From the NCBI RefSeq assembly GCF_001723355.1, contig NZ_LPWE01000012.1, positions 62,001-126,000 on the forward strand: DNA of 64,000 bases, given 5' to 3'. The translations under genes were made by a program, and so were the position numbers. Position 1 is the stretch's first letter. Each line of letters opens with the position of its first letter. Source of the stretch: Methyloceanibacter stevinii (GTDB lineage Bacteria; Pseudomonadota; Alphaproteobacteria; Rhizobiales; Methyloligellaceae). The notes beneath the pieces are model-generated. The model worked only from the letters and a program-made list of their open reading frames with translations, made no database searches and was not told the DNA's origin. Positions 50,560-58,894 of this stretch are shown here, in pieces.

Positions 50560-51624
50560 TTGACCAGCCCAAGCCTGACGCCTGGAGCGGCCAATTTCTG
50601 GATGGACCAGAAGCCCTCCGAGAGCCCCAATGAGCCAACGCTTCCGGCCGGCTCCAATCTCACGCCCGACGAGTACCTCACTGCCTACCGCAAGATGCTT
50701 CTCGTCCGCCGCTTCGAGGAGAAGGCCGGACAGCTCTACGGCATGGGCTATATCGGCGGCTTCTGCCATCTCTATATCGGCCAGGAAGCCGTGGTCACCG
50801 GCATGATGATGGCCAAGCGCGACGGCGACCAGGTCATCACCTCTTATCGCGACCACGGCCACATGCTGGCCACGGGCATGGACCCTAAGGGCGTCATGGC
50901 CGAGCTCACGGGACGGCAGAGCGGCTACTCCAAAGGCAAGGGCGGCTCGATGCACATGTTCTCCGTGGAGAAGGGCTTCTACGGCGGCCACGGCATCGTC
51001 GGCACGCCGGCGCCGCTCGGTTCGGGCATCGCCTTCGCCAACAAGTACCGCCGCAACGACAATGTGTGCCTGACCTTCTTCGGCGAGGGCGCGGCCAACC
51101 AGGGCCAGGTCTACGAGAGCTTCAACATGGCCTCGCTGTGGAAGCTCCCGGTGCTCTACATCATCGAGAACAATCACTACGCCATGGGCACGTCCGTCGA
51201 ACGCGCCTCGGCCCAAGCCCAAGACCTCCATCATCGCGGGCTCGCCTTCGGCATTCCGGGACGCGAAGTCGACGGCATGGACGTGGCGGCGGTGAAGGAG
51301 GCCGGCGAGAAGGCGCTAGCCCATATCCGCGCCGGCAACGGCCCTATGATCCTGGAAATGCTGACCTATCGCTATCGCGGTCACTCGATGTCGGATCCGG
51401 CGAAATACCGGACACGCGAGGAGGTCCAGGACATGCGTCAGCACCACGATCCGATCGAGCTCGTCCACAAACGCCTCACCGACCTCGGCCGTCCCGAAGA
51501 CGAGATGAAAGCGATCGACAAGGAGATCCGGGCCATCGTCAACGAGGCCGCGCAGTTCGCACAGGACGAGCCGGAGCCGGACGCTAGCGAGCTTTGGACC
51601 GACGTCGTGGCGACGAAAGGCTAG
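50560..51624 (+). CDS. pdhA: pyruvate dehydrogenase E1 component alpha subunit
   Basis: 354-residue thiamine-diphosphate enzyme subunit decarboxylating pyruvate. Motifs are [29 protein letters not shown], the ThDP-binding [20 protein letters not shown] with [11 protein letters not shown], and the phosphorylation-loop-like [15 protein letters not shown] assign TTG 50560 because AAGGAGG (50547-50553) lies exactly 6 bases before it; the first ATG in frame is at 50602. It is 4 bases upstream of pdhB. Confidence 0.95.
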
Positions 51625-51628
51625 GGCG

Positions 51629-53071
51629 ATGCCTACCGACATTCTCATGCCCGCACTGTCGCCTACGATGGAGGAGGGCACGCTCGCCAAATGGCACGTC
51701 AAGGAGGGCGACGCCGTCCAGACCGGCAATGTGATCGCCGAAATCGAGACCGACAAGGCGACGATGGAGGTGGAAGCCATCGAGGACGGCGTCATCCAGT
51801 CGATCCTCGTGTCGGAAGGCACCGAGCATGTGCCGGTCAATCAACCCATCGCCGTGCTGCAATTGGAGGACGACGAAGCCCCGGCGGAAGGCGGGCCTGC
51901 TGCCGTCGCGCCGCCACCCGCTTCCGAGCCGGCACAGCCTGAACCCGCGGCACCTGAAGCACAGGAGCCGCCACCGGACTTTGGCGAAACCGAGCCTGCG
52001 GTGGAGATCGCTCCCGCAGGCCCGCAAGCGGCGCCGCCCGAGCCTGCGCCTGAACCCGATATCCCGCCCGGCACCGAGACTGTCGACATGACCGTGCGCG
52101 AAGCCTTGCGCGACGCCATGGCTGAGGAGATGCGCCGCGACCCCGACGTGTTCGTCATGGGCGAGGAGGTGGCCGAGTATCAGGGCGCCTACAAAGTCAC
52201 CCAGGGCTGCCTGGAGGAATTCGGAGACCGCCGCGTCATCGATACGCCGATCACGGAGTATGGCTTTGCTGGCATCGGTGTGGGCGCGGCCTTCGCGGGG
52301 CTCCGGCCGATCGTCGAGTTCATGACCTGGAACTTCGCCCTGCAGGCCATCGACCACATCATCAACTCCGCCGCCAAGACGCTCTACATGTCGGGCGGAC
52401 AGATGCACTGTCCGATCGTGTTTCGCGGCCCCAACGGGGCGGCTGCCCGCGTCGCGGCCCAGCACAGCCAGGACTTTTCCGCTATCTACGCCCAAGTCCC
52501 CGGACTGAAAGTCATCGCACCATACAGCGCTTCCGATGCGAAGGGGCTGTTGAAAGCGGCGATCCGCGAGAACAGCCCCGTGGTGTTCCTGGAGAACGAA
52601 ATTCTCTACGGCCAGACCTTCCCGGTTCCCAAACTCGACGACTTCGTTCTGCCGATCGGCAAGGCGCGCATTGCACGGCCAGGGCGCGACGTGACGCTCG
52701 TCTCCTATTCGCGCGGCCTCGCCTACACGATCGAAGCGGCCGAACGGTTGGCGGAGGAGGGGATCGAGGCGGAGGTCATCGACCTGCGCACCTTGCGGCC
52801 GCTCGATATCGACACAGTGCTGGCGTCGGTGCGGAAGACCAACCGCATCGTGACCATCGAGGAAGGCTGGCCCATCTGTTCCGTGGGCACCGAGATTTGC
52901 GCGCAAGTAACAGCAGGCGCTTTCGACTACCTCGACGCGCCGCCGCTGAAGATCACGGGCGCCGACGTTCCCATGCCGTACGCCGCCAATCTCGAGAAGC
53001 TCGCGCTGCCCTCAGTGGACCTTGTCGTCAGTGCGGCCAAATCTGTTTGCTACCGTGAGGATGCCGCATGA
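51629..53071 (+). CDS. pdhB: pyruvate dehydrogenase E1 component beta subunit with N-terminal lipoyl domain
   Basis: 480-residue E1-beta. Residues 1-78 are a complete lipoyl domain ([20 protein letters not shown]; lipoyl-lysine Lys43 in [13 protein letters not shown]). A long Ala/Pro/Glu-rich linker (about 85-150) leads to the transketolase-type domain ([54 protein letters not shown]) and the C-terminal transketolase-C domain ([19 protein letters not shown]). Such lipoylated E1-beta is known in alphaproteobacteria. Here it is the only lipoyl domain I find in the operon. Its stop overlaps the next gene by 4 bases. Confidence 0.96.
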
Positions 53072-53556
53072 CGGACTTTTGGCTGACCGACGAGGAAATG
53101 GACAAGGAAATCGAGGCCAACCGGGCGGTGTGCCAGCGGCTCGACGACTATGACCGGGACGAGGACGGCTGGGAGGAAATCTGGGAGGGCCTCTTCGCGA
53201 TCCTGGTCGAGCATATGGACGAAGTCCGCGAAGTGTTCGACCTCGATCCGCGCAGGTCGGAACTCTTTTCCGAGTTCCCGGATCTTCTCTGGGCGGCCTG
53301 CGACCCGCAGCAGCCCATCATCTACTCGCCCGTGTTCCGCGAATTCGGCATGCCTGTGTTCGACGGCGGGCCGGCCATGACCACGCTGCGCTACGATCCG
53401 TGGACAGGCAAGGCGCTTCCACCGTCCGTGCGCGATGCCTTCTTCGAAGAGGCCGAGAAGATCCTGGGCCATGAGGTCGGCGTGCTTGATGAGGAACTCG
53501 ATACGCTGCCCGAGGCTTATCAGCGTGAGACTTGGTGGATCGAGAAGGGACTTTGA
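53068..53556 (+). CDS. uncharacterised protein within the PDH operon
   Basis: 162-residue acidic protein that I do not recognise. ATG 53068 overlaps the pdhB stop (ATGA) and its own stop lies 2 bases before pdhC, so it is clearly part of the operon. The N-terminal half is very acidic and Trp-rich ([18 protein letters not shown]) and predicted helical; the middle holds [20 protein letters not shown] and [20 protein letters not shown]; the end is [12 protein letters not shown]. There is no signal peptide, membrane segment or lipoyl motif. It occupies the place where the lipoyl domain of E2 would normally begin. A role in PDH assembly or regulation is inference from position. Confidence 0.85.
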
Positions 53557-53558
53557 CC

Positions 53559-54662
53559 ATGAACGTCCCCGTGGGTCACAATGGTCCGCACGAGAGCTCT
53601 GCTGAGCATGTGATGGACCGGATCGCGGAGCAAATTCTGGGAAGCACGCAAGACGGAACCGCCGGCGCAGGACGCCTGTTCGCCTCTCCGCTGGCACGGC
53701 GCATCGCTCGCGATCGCGGCATCGACCTTGCCGCGCTGACGGGCTCCGGCCCCCATGGCCGCATCGTCCTGTCCGACGTGGAACGCGCCTTGGCGGAGCC
53801 GCAGCCGCCGAAGGCCACTCCAGCCGAAGGCGCACCCCCAGCTGAGCCTGAAGCACCCATCCACGGCGAACTGATGCGGGCGCCGTCGACACCGCCCGCA
53901 TCGGTCCCCGGCATGGCGCAACCCATGCCGGACAAGCAGATTCTCGCGCTCTATGAGCCCGGACGCTACGAAGTCGTGCCCCACGACACGATGCGCCGCT
54001 TCATTGCGGACCGTCTGACACTTGCCAAGCAGACGATCCCGCATTTCTATCTCAACATCGAATGCGAACTCGATGCGTTGCTGGCCGCCCGCGAGCGGTT
54101 GAACGGCATGGCGCCGCATGAGGGGCCCCGCGCCTTCAAGCTCTCGGTGAACGACTTCATCATCAAGGCCATGGCCATGGCGCTGCAGACCGTGCCGGCC
54201 GCGAACGCGACCTGGACGGAGCAGGGCATATTGCGCCATCGCCCGTCCGACATCGCCGTGGCGGTGGCGCTCGAAGGCGGCGGGCTCTACACGCCGGTGA
54301 TCCGCGATGCCGAACTCAAGAGCCTGTCGGAGATCTCCAACGAAATGCGCGATCTCGCCTCCCGCGCCCGCTCCAAACGTCTCGCCCCACACGAATATCA
54401 GGGCGGCGCGACATCGATCTCCAATCTTGGCATGTTCGGCATCGACAACTTCGATGCGGTCATCAACCCGCCGCACAGTTCGATCCTTGCCGTGGGGCGC
54501 GCGGAGAAGAAGCCTATCGTCAAGGACGACGCCATCAAGATCGCCACCATGATGGGCGTGACGCTGTCGTGCGATCATCGGGTCATTGACGGTGCGCTTG
54601 GCGCGGAGCTCCTTGCCGCCTTCAAGGCCTATCTCGAAGACCCCGTGACGATGCTGGTCTAG
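53559..54662 (+). CDS. pdhC: dihydrolipoamide acetyltransferase (PDH E2) lacking a lipoyl domain
   Basis: 367-residue E2. It begins with about 40 non-domain residues, then the peripheral-subunit-binding domain (FASPLARRIARDRGIDLAAL, about residues 41-77), a Pro/Ala linker and the catalytic domain with IPHFYLNIECELDALLAARE, LSVNDFIIKAMAMALQTVP, SISNLGMFGIDNFDAVINPP and the active-site SCDHRVIDGALGAELL. No GDxxxxx-ETDKA lipoyl motif is present, and none is hidden in another frame, because the upstream DNA encodes the 162-residue protein. Start ATG 53559 follows AAGGGA; an in-frame start at 53532 also gives no lipoyl domain. Typical alphaproteobacterial E2 is 60-80 residues longer for this reason. 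Confidence 0.94.
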   Translation: MNVPVGHNGPHESSAEHVMDRIAEQILGSTQDGTAGAGRLFASPLARRIARDRGIDLAALTGSGPHGRIVLSDVERALAEPQPPKATPAEGAPPAEPEAPIHGELMRAPSTPPASVPGMAQPMPDKQILALYEPGRYEVVPHDTMRRFIADRLTLAKQTIPHFYLNIECELDALLAARERLNGMAPHEGPRAFKLSVNDFIIKAMAMALQTVPAANATWTEQGILRHRPSDIAVAVALEGGGLYTPVIRDAELKSLSEISNEMRDLASRARSKRLAPHEYQGGATSISNLGMFGIDNFDAVINPPHSSILAVGRAEKKPIVKDDAIKIATMMGVTLSCDHRVIDGALGAELLAAFKAYLEDPVTMLV

Positions 54663-54685: not shown

Positions 54686-55276
54686 ATGGCGCTCGAACCC
54701 ACATTCCGCCCGGCGACACTCGCAGACGCCGCCGCGCTGGCCGTGCTCGTCGATATCGCAGCCAATGGCCTGGCGAACCAAATTTGGCTCGATCAGGCCG
54801 GTCCCGGTCAATCGGCGCTCGAAGTGGGGCGCCAATCCGTGCGACGGCCCGAGGACGTGGATTCCTATCGCAATGCGACAATCGCCATGATGGGCCCGGA
54901 GATCGCCGCATGCGTGATCGGCGGACTGCCGGAAAGCCTCTACGACGCGTCCCGACTGGACGAGAAGCCTGACATGTTTCGCCCGGTCGCCCGGCTCGCG
55001 GTGCAAGCGCCGGGGACTTGGTTCATCGACGTCATTGCCAGTTTCGCCGAGTTCCGGGGCTACGGTCTCGGGTCGAAGCTTCTTGCACTTGCGGCCTCGA
55101 AGGCAGAGGAGGCCGGTCCTGCAGGCAACAGTCTCGTCGTCGGCAGTTGGAACACAGGCGCCGAACGTCTGTATAGACGCTGCGGATTTCTACCGGTGGC
55201 ACGGGAGCCGGCAATCCTGCCGGAGTCGTACCCGCAATCTGGAGACTGGATCTTGATGCAAAGGCCGCTGCCGTGA
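54686..55276 (+). CDS. GNAT family N-acetyltransferase, copy 1
   Basis: 196-residue GCN5-related acetyltransferase. The fold begins FRPATLADAAALAVLVDIAA; the acetyl-CoA loop is FAEFRGYGLGSKLLALA (RGYGLG, about residues 127-132), and the C-terminal strand-helix is VGSWNTGAERLYRRCGF. It lies 23 bases after pdhC on the same strand and overlaps copy 2 by 4 bases. It is clearly paralogous to copy 2. Substrate unknown. Because it sits among PDH genes that make acetyl-CoA, a link to the complex is possible but unproven. Confidence 0.88.
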   Translation: MALEPTFRPATLADAAALAVLVDIAANGLANQIWLDQAGPGQSALEVGRQSVRRPEDVDSYRNATIAMMGPEIAACVIGGLPESLYDASRLDEKPDMFRPVARLAVQAPGTWFIDVIASFAEFRGYGLGSKLLALAASKAEEAGPAGNSLVVGSWNTGAERLYRRCGFLPVAREPAILPESYPQSGDWILMQRPLP

Positions 55277-55878
55277 CGACGACGCCGACATTCCGCCCGG
55301 CGACGCTCGCGGATGCCGCGGCGTTGGCCGTGCTCGTGGACATCGCGGGCGAGGGCGCGCCGAACCGGCTCTGGCTCGATATAGCCGGCCCTGGCCATTC
55401 CGCACTCGAGGTGGGGCGCGAACGCGCGCGCCGGGAGGAGGGCGGCTTCTCCTATCGCCACACCACGATTGCCGAGATCGACGATGAGATCGTTGCATGT
55501 CTCATCGGCTACCGGCTGGACGACCCGTACGACCTCTCCGGCGTCGACGAACTGCCCGCCATGTTTCAACCGCTCCTTCGTCTCGAAGCCCAAGCCCCCG
55601 GCACATGGTATGTGCACGTATTGGCGACGTTTACGGAGCACCACAGACAGGGTCTCGGCATGAAGCTTCTCGATGTCGCGAACGAGCGGGCGCGTGAAAC
55701 CGACGCGCCGGCCGCGAGCATTATCGTGGGCAGCTGGAACGAGGGGGCAGGGCGGCTCTACCGGCGAGCTGGATACGAGCAGATCGCAAGTGAACGTGCC
55801 GTGCTTCCGCCTGACCTGCCGCAATCGGGAGACTGGATCTTGATGACACGGCCAGTGACGACGGGGGCGCTCTCATGA
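55273..55878 (+). CDS. GNAT family N-acetyltransferase, copy 2
   Basis: 201-residue paralogue of the preceding gene. Both share the near-identical N-terminal TFRPATLADAAALAVLVDIA and the ends VGSWN-x-GA-x-RLYRR and LPQSGDWILM, with a more divergent middle. The acetyl-CoA loop here is EHHRQGLGMKLLDVA (RQGLG). GTG 55273 overlaps the stop of copy 1; the stop overlaps lpdA by 4 bases. This is a tandem duplication inside a translationally coupled operon. Confidence 0.88.
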   Translation: MTTTPTFRPATLADAAALAVLVDIAGEGAPNRLWLDIAGPGHSALEVGRERARREEGGFSYRHTTIAEIDDEIVACLIGYRLDDPYDLSGVDELPAMFQPLLRLEAQAPGTWYVHVLATFTEHHRQGLGMKLLDVANERARETDAPAASIIVGSWNEGAGRLYRRAGYEQIASERAVLPPDLPQSGDWILMTRPVTTGALS

Positions 55879-57287
55879 CCTCCGGCACGGAATTCGATCT
55901 CGTCGTCATCGGCGGCGGACCCGGCGGCTACGTAGCGGCGATCCGCGCCGCCCAGCTCGGCATGCGCACGGCCGTCATCGAGCGGGAGCACCTCGGCGGC
56001 ATTTGCCTGAACTGGGGATGCATCCCCACGAAGGCGCTGCTGCGGACCTCGGAGCTCTACCGGCAGATCAAGGAGGCCGAGGCGTTCGGCCTGCGTGTCG
56101 ACGGGCTCGGCTTCGATTTCGGCCGGCTCATCCAGCGCAGCCGCAACGTGGCCGACAAGCTCTCCCGCGGCGTCGCTTTTCTGATGAAGAAGAACAAGAT
56201 CGCCGTGTTCGATGCAACTGGACGCCTCGAAGGTCCCGGACGCGTCGCCCTGACAACGAAGGACGGCACCATCCTGCCGTCGGTCACGGCGAAACACATC
56301 GTCATCGCGACCGGCGCGCGGGCCCGCAGCCTTCCCGGTCTTGAGCCCGACGGGCTCCGCATCTGGACCTACAAGGAAGCGATGGTACCGCCGCGTCTGC
56401 CGCAATCGCTTCTCGTCATCGGCTCGGGCGCGATCGGCATCGAGTTCGCGAGCTTCTATCGGGCGCTCGGCGTCGAGGTGACGGTCGTCGAAGTCCAGGA
56501 TCGAATTCTGCCGGTGGAGGACGAGGAGATCTCGAAGCTCGCCCATATGGCTTTCACCAAACAGGGCATCGCGATCCATACCGGCACGGCCGTTGAGAAC
56601 CTGCACCCTACTGACGCGGGCGGTGTCTCAGCCCGGCTGCGCAGCGCCGACGGCAACACCACCGACGTCGCCGCCGAGCGCGTCATTCTCGCGGTCGGCA
56701 TCACCGGCAACGTCGAAGGCCTCGGCCTCGAGCAGTCTGGCGTGACGGTCGACCGGGGGCACATCGTCATCGACGAATGGTGCCGCACGGGTGCGCCAGG
56801 GATCTATGCCATTGGAGACGTGGTCGGACCGCCATGGCTCGCCCACAAAGCCATGCACGAAGGCGTCCTCTGCGTGGAGAAGATCGCGGGCATCGAAGGC
56901 GTCCATCCGCTCGACCCGCGCAACGTGCCGGGCTGCACCTATTGCACGCCGCAGATCGCGAGCCTCGGCCTGACCGAAGCCGCTGCGCGCGAGGCGGGTT
57001 ACGAGCTCAAGGTCGGGCGCTATCCGTACTCCGCCAACGGCAAGGCCATTGCGCTCGGCGAGACCGACGGTCTCATCAAGACGATTTTCGACGCCAAGAC
57101 CGGCGCTCTACTCGGCGCGCACATGATCGGCGCCGAAGTCACGGAACTGATTCAAGGATTTGCCATCGGCAAGACGCTCGAAACGACCGAGGCCGAACTC
57201 ATGACCACGATCTTTCCTCATCCGACATTATCGGAGATGATGCATGAGTCGGTTCTGGACGCGTTCGGGCGTGCCTTGCACATTTGA
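55875..57287 (+). CDS. lpdA: dihydrolipoyl dehydrogenase (PDH E3)
   Basis: 470-residue flavoprotein reoxidising the dihydrolipoyl arm. FAD motif VVIGGGPGGYVAAIRAAQLG (residues 10-29), redox disulfide LGGICLNWGCIPTKALL, NAD motif LVIGSGAIGIEFASFYRALG, second FAD motif YAIGDVVGPPWLAHKAMHEG, and the C-terminal His-Glu interface PHPTLSEMMHESVLDA. There is no N-terminal lipoyl domain, unlike some bacterial E3 proteins. It overlaps GNAT copy 2 by 4 bases. Confidence 0.96.
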   Translation: MTSGTEFDLVVIGGGPGGYVAAIRAAQLGMRTAVIEREHLGGICLNWGCIPTKALLRTSELYRQIKEAEAFGLRVDGLGFDFGRLIQRSRNVADKLSRGVAFLMKKNKIAVFDATGRLEGPGRVALTTKDGTILPSVTAKHIVIATGARARSLPGLEPDGLRIWTYKEAMVPPRLPQSLLVIGSGAIGIEFASFYRALGVEVTVVEVQDRILPVEDEEISKLAHMAFTKQGIAIHTGTAVENLHPTDAGGVSARLRSADGNTTDVAAERVILAVGITGNVEGLGLEQSGVTVDRGHIVIDEWCRTGAPGIYAIGDVVGPPWLAHKAMHEGVLCVEKIAGIEGVHPLDPRNVPGCTYCTPQIASLGLTEAAAREAGYELKVGRYPYSANGKAIALGETDGLIKTIFDAKTGALLGAHMIGAEVTELIQGFAIGKTLETTEAELMTTIFPHPTLSEMMHESVLDAFGRALHI

Positions 57288-57931: not shown

Positions 57932-58894
57932 ATGGTTACACTGCTGAATACGGTTCAAGAGACAAAAGGCCGGCCGCGCCATCCCGAGAAGGCGCGGCTT
58001 CCCGATACGCCCGTCATGCGCAAACCGGAATGGATCCGCGTGAAGGCCCCGGGCAATCACGCTCTCGACGGCACGCGCGAGACGCTGCAGCGCCACGGTC
58101 TCCACACGGTCTGCGAAGAGGCTGCTTGCCCTAATATCGGGGACTGCTGGTCGAAACGGCACGCCACCGTGATGATCATGGGCGACGTGTGCACACGCGC
58201 CTGCGCCTTCTGTAACGTCGCCACGGGCAAGCCGGCGCATCTGGATCCGGACGAACCCATGCGTACGGCGGACGCGATCGCCGAACTCGGCCTCACCCAT
58301 GTGGTCGTGACCTCCGTCGACCGGGATGATCTTGCCGACGGGGGCGCGGCCCATTTCGCGCTCACGATCACCGCGATCCGAAAGGCAGCACCGGAAACCA
58401 CGATTGAGGTCCTGACGCCCGACTTCATGCGCAAGACGGGCGCGCTTGAGATCGTGCTGGAGGCACGCCCCGACGTCTTCAACCACAATATCGAAACGGT
58501 GCCCTCGCTCTACCGGCGCATTCGTCCGGGTGCGGACTTTTCGCATTCCGCGGGGTTGCTGAAAGAGGCGAAGCGCATCGATCCAGCAGTGTTTACGAAA
58601 TCAGGCATCATGGTGGGCCTCGGCGAAACCGACGATGAGGTCGAGAGCGTGATGGACGATCTGCGCGCAGCCGACGTGGACTTCCTCACCATCGGCCAGT
58701 ACTTGCAGCCAACGCGCAAGCACGCCGCCATCGACCGCTTCGTCACACCCGAGCGTTTCGCGGACTACAAGCGCCACGCCGAAGCAAAAGGCTTTCTCCT
58801 TGTCGCCTCGACGCCGCTGACGCGCTCGTCCTATCACGCCGCGGAAGATTTCGAGCAGCTGAAGGCGGCTCGGCTTGCGAGCCTCGCTGGCTAG
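57932..58894 (+). CDS. lipA: lipoyl synthase
   Basis: 320-residue radical SAM enzyme inserting sulfur into octanoyl domains. The auxiliary cluster motif is [13 protein letters not shown] (about residues 61-73), the radical SAM motif CTRACAFC (about 88-95), and the auxiliary-cluster Ser is in the C-terminal [10 protein letters not shown]. It sits just downstream of the PDH operon whose lipoyl domain it would modify. ATG 57932 is the start. Confidence 0.96.

Follow-up and report, generated by a model that had tools for sequence, protein, structure and literature searches.

It is a central rule in the understanding of the pyruvate dehydrogenase (PDH) complex that the lipoyl arm is part of the E2 core. 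The system closest to the locus studied here is the alphaproteobacterial PDH with a lipoyl-bearing E1-beta subunit (NF008854, PRK11892), which we take to be the type of Zymomonas and Sinorhizobium. A preliminary description of the locus had held that such complexes normally keep a lipoyl domain on E2 as well. This holds for the wider group: 89 loci with both genes readable had a lipoyl domain on E1-beta and on E2. Deviating positions of the arm have been described elsewhere. The PDH of Mycoplasma hyopneumoniae has its lipoyl domain on E3 (PdhD), and lipoylation of this domain was shown (PMC7873978). The actinobacterial OdhA of Corynebacterium fuses E1 and E2 activities and depends on the lipoyl groups of AceF (PMC8146983, PMC7568260).

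The window, a stretch of 64,000 nucleotides from the methanol-using bacterium Methyloceanibacter stevinii, contains on its forward strand a pdh operon in the order E1-alpha, E1-beta, a 162-aa open reading frame, E2, two GNAT acetyltransferases and E3, with lipA slightly downstream. The E1-alpha gene pdhA (50560-51624, TIGR03182) is given from its first in-frame start, the true start may be downstream. The gene pdhC (53559-54662, ATG start, 367 aa) encodes a short E2. Pfam scans of its 377-codon open frame yielded only E3_binding, the peripheral subunit-binding domain (PSBD; PF02817, 60 bits, residues 41-75, 53679-53783), and 2-oxoacid_dh, the acetyltransferase catalytic domain (PF00198, 265 bits, residues 136-366, 53964-54656). 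About 40 residues precede the PSBD, which is followed by a linker and the catalytic domain. Neither the open frame nor the upstream sequence contained a lipoyl domain on E2. The open frame begins only about 10 codons upstream of the ATG, which leaves no room for a lipoyl domain from an alternative start, and the initial claim of an E2 lacking this domain from any plausible start was confirmed. The family model TIGR01349 aligned from model position 120 on only, with a score of 380 against a cut-off of 445. Of the features of a PDH E2, the protein has the catalytic domain with the His/Asp active site and the PSBD, and lacks the N-terminal lipoyl domain. The active-site motif HRVIDG is intact (His340 codon at 54576-54578), and the His/Asp pair as well as the PSBD were conserved among the relatives compared. 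Near the N-terminus, the motif EHVMDRIAEQI (53604-53636) of the short E2s in the window's clade is common to the linker between lipoyl domain and PSBD in lipoyl-bearing relatives. The catalytic domain had dN/dS values of 0.02-0.08 against five relatives (NG86), hence the gene is kept by strong purifying selection.

Between E2 and E3 lie the tandem GNAT acetyltransferases (54686-55276 and 55273-55878). The pair (54686-55878) was kept in most species of Methyloceanibacter with a short E2 and evolved faster than most pdh genes; a function as regulator of the PDH complex is possible.

The arm is encoded on the E1-beta gene pdhB (51629-53071; NF008854, 803 bits). The protein consists of an N-terminal lipoyl domain with the DKA motif (PF00364) and the transketolase domains (PF02779, PF02780). 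As initially described, the lipoyl domain is complete (residues 4-77, 51638-51859, E = 9e-21) and includes Lys43 (codon 51755-51757) in the motif ETDKATM, the predicted lipoylation site. This motif was identical across the 33 E1-beta and 19 E2 lipoyl domains compared. The lipoyl domain of E1-beta had dN/dS values of 0.03-0.09 in the same NG86 comparison as E2. A structural model of E1-beta based on 23 aligned sequences presented a folded lipoyl domain (pLDDT about 83-94) with Lys43 between two strands, then a disordered linker (residues 82-135) and the core. The Pro/Ala-rich tether from the lipoyl domain to the core comprises about 70 residues (51869-52078); a longer E1-beta tether as compensation for the loss on E2 was not seen in the locus distances among relatives. 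The dihydrolipoyl dehydrogenase E3 (lpd, 55875-57287) is devoid of a lipoyl domain, the PF00364 scan of this protein being empty as the preliminary description had it.

A lipoyl domain may be provided by another gene, and the genome was searched in an assembly of 14 contigs with a completeness of 99.6 %. Two PF00198 proteins were present genome-wide, the short PDH E2 and an OGDH-type E2 with its own lipoyl domain; a second full-length pdhC was not found in this search. The five PF00364 matches were the OGDH-E2, E1-beta, a BCCP-sized protein of 162 aa, a biotin carboxylase with the motif AMKMEN and one weak partial match. A stand-alone lipoyl protein was not found by the PF00364 search, and for the glycine cleavage H protein GcvH no GCV_H match was obtained genome-wide. 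By these searches, E1-beta carries the sole lipoyl domain available to PDH, aside from that of the OGDH-E2. The lipoyl synthase gene lipA (57932-58894) is located beside the operon, LipB is encoded elsewhere in the genome. The main functional rival of an arm on E1-beta is an arm borrowed in trans from the OGDH E2 in a mixed PDH/OGDH complex: the OGDH-E2 is the only other lipoyl protein of the genome, and the use of AceF lipoyl groups by OdhA is a precedent (PMC8146983, PMC7568260). However, the E1-beta lipoyl domain is intact and conserved, so borrowing is not needed, and the short E2 retains its own PSBD. We consider borrowing improbable.

The loss of the E2 lipoyl domain is not unique to the window; it recurs in Hyphomicrobium and elsewhere. 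Within Methyloceanibacter, seven genomes including the window form a clade with a short E2 and a DUF6980 gene (G000, G003, G004, G006, G009, G013, G014), and two further genomes have a short E2 without DUF6980 (G002, G005). Short E2 genes were also present in the sister genus, there with DUF6980 (G018, G023), in Hyphomicrobium (SB8, G117, G150, G261) and in a member of another family outside the window's order (G753). In G117, SB8 and G753, E2 starts at the subunit-binding domain, a few dozen bases past the E1-beta stop. All short-E2 loci have kept the lipoyl domain of E1-beta, and no locus with enough sequence was without both lipoyl domains. In a likelihood tree of E1-alpha, the E1-beta core and the E2 catalytic domain, four separate clades consisting of short forms only were strongly supported; G753 lies outside the order and outside the sampling of this tree.

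The distribution also bears on whether a lipoyl-coding segment was missing or misread in assembly or annotation. The layout of this operon recurs in Methyloceanibacter methanicus, in several MAGs and in two genomes of the genus that are assembled as single contigs (G004, G014), which rules out a local fault of the assembly. The E1-beta/E2 gap contained no lipoyl-coding segment in any short-form relative and is occupied in the window's clade by a conserved DUF6980 gene. With the short E2 conserved across the clade and under purifying selection, the concern over an isolated artefact raised in the preliminary description is refuted by these relatives, and we regard an artefact as having practically no probability.

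Several other candidates were rejected. L121 appeared as the reverse case, with a lipoyl domain on E2 and none on E1-beta, and turned out to be a different 2-oxoacid dehydrogenase complex in its usual canonical layout. L162 had been flagged as free of a lipoyl domain, which is present and overlaps the end of E1-beta. G012 was first taken as a short-E2 genome; its lipoyl domain is present in another frame. The candidate G017 was affected by masked bases, and the short frames of G493, G474 and G625 in the class-level set were located at contig ends. An 80-codon frame with a PF00364 match in G753 is biotinyl (ESMKME).

A further reading regards the short E2 as a decaying gene in a lineage losing PDH. 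In the genus member G008 (L211), 99 % complete, the sole E2 was of the OGDH type and PF00364 gave three matches; its PDH operon appears to be lost, and the complex may therefore matter little in the lineage. The E2 frame is disturbed in three genomes, in G012 (L046) between the lipoyl domain and the PSBD, in G013 (L047) in the last codons and in G023 (L058) mid-gene. These breaks may be sequencing errors or could reflect relaxed constraint there. Both the missing operon and the frame breaks would fit decay, but dN/dS values are very low and the active site is intact in the DUF6980 clade, two of whose genomes are single contigs, and Hyphomicrobium and G753 retain an E2 of the same shape. Decay is thus highly improbable.

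The gap between E1-beta and the short E2 holds the 162-aa open reading frame (53068-53556), a DUF6980 protein that was absent from the preliminary description. Nine copies of DUF6980 were found in the window's family, all nine between E1-beta and a short E2. Outside this family, no DUF6980 gene had a pdh gene within about 1.5 kb of it. DUF6980 relatives elsewhere in the order have the Cys motifs CC and CPxCG, whereas the pdh-linked proteins have lost them (DPWTG in the window). The pdh-linked proteins (window, L052, L058) also have an N-terminal extension compared with other DUF6980 proteins. The dN/dS values of 0.07-0.10 (NG86) represent purifying selection. An AlphaFold model of the protein was set aside for its mean pLDDT of 42. 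DUF6980 may plausibly have a role in the PDH complex; the short E2s of Hyphomicrobium, G753 and G002/G005 occur without it.

The loss itself left traces in the genus. The lipoyl-bearing members (L037, L044, L045, L046, L049, L050) have a GFA-like gene (CHCGAV) in the slot of the window's DUF6980 gene. In G002 and G005, the DNA past the E1-beta stop matches that of lipoyl-bearing sisters until this small CHCGAV-type gene begins; after that point the sequence jumps to the linker ahead of the PSBD. The simplest account is a single deletion that removed the small gene together with the lipoyl domain. Within Methyloceanibacter, the lipoyl domains of E1-beta and E2 were closer to each other than to their counterparts in other genera, a clustering of short domains with weak resolution. 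Gene conversion or re-copying between the two lipoyl domains within the operon may have occurred. This clustering leaves the number of losses in the window's family uncertain (two to three); the losses in Hyphomicrobium and G753 are separate from these. Redundancy of the two lipoyl domains meant that the E2 copy could be lost several times. Alternatively, one loss accompanied by the DUF6980 insertion preceded the split between Methyloceanibacter and its sister genus, and some species later regained the E2 lipoyl domain by copying it from E1-beta. The DUF6980-linked short E2 in both genera and the clustering of the two lipoyl domains within the genus speak for this history, but the tree would then require two regains, gene conversion accounts equally for the clustering, and G002/G005 have a separate deletion scar. 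We hold it to be possible, though rather doubtful; it yields the same present function and is compatible with a single arm on E1-beta.

Taken for the present-day complex, the window probably encodes a functional PDH in which a lipoyl arm on E1-beta only serves E1, E2 and E3. We infer from the genes that Lys43 is lipoylated, that the complex assembles and that E2 and E3 are served by the arm on E1. In such a complex, E1 (alpha2-beta2) would dock on the PSBD of the E2 core and contribute two lipoyl domains, both held by flexible tethers about 70 residues long. The arms would be reductively acetylated at E1, would hand the acetyl group to the E2 catalytic domain and would be reoxidised by E3 that occupies other PSBDs of that core. 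The preliminary description had called this an inverted architecture, which goes too far, as the catalytic and subunit-binding domains remain on E2 and only the arm moved. The number of lipoyl groups might further be set by the bound E1 instead of the core subunits, with DUF6980, devoid of its Cys motifs, as an added subunit in the Methyloceanibacter group that helps to dock or steer the E1-borne arm, a proposal we rate as unlikely.

If the arm is indeed confined to E1-beta, a natural and repeatedly evolved PDH raises the questions of whether tethering of the arm to the core is necessary, how many arms the complex needs, and what purpose a lipoyl domain on the alphaproteobacterial E1-beta serves. 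Recurrent loss makes the textbook rule directly testable, since Methyloceanibacter and Hyphomicrobium both include strains that can be cultivated. A PDH arm on E1-beta only had no record in the literature searched, most subscription journals being outside the scope of that search. With the alphaproteobacterial lipoyl-E1-beta PDH, the locus shares the gene order, the alpha/beta E1, the N-terminal lipoyl domain of E1-beta, an E2 with PSBD and catalytic domain, and the linked lipA found in many of them; it differs in the E2, which in the 89 loci also has a lipoyl domain and here has none. The PDH of M. hyopneumoniae likewise places the arm on a subunit other than E2, but there it is E3, whereas the E3 in the window is without PF00364 and the arm is on E1-beta. 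As in the OdhA hybrid, an acyltransferase domain would depend on the lipoyl domain of another polypeptide; unlike OdhA, which borrows from AceF, E2 is here a separate gene and the arm is on the complex's own E1-beta. Relocation of the arm has a precedent in M. hyopneumoniae, and among the alphaproteobacterial loci examined, lipoyl domains on both E1-beta and E2 are the common arrangement.
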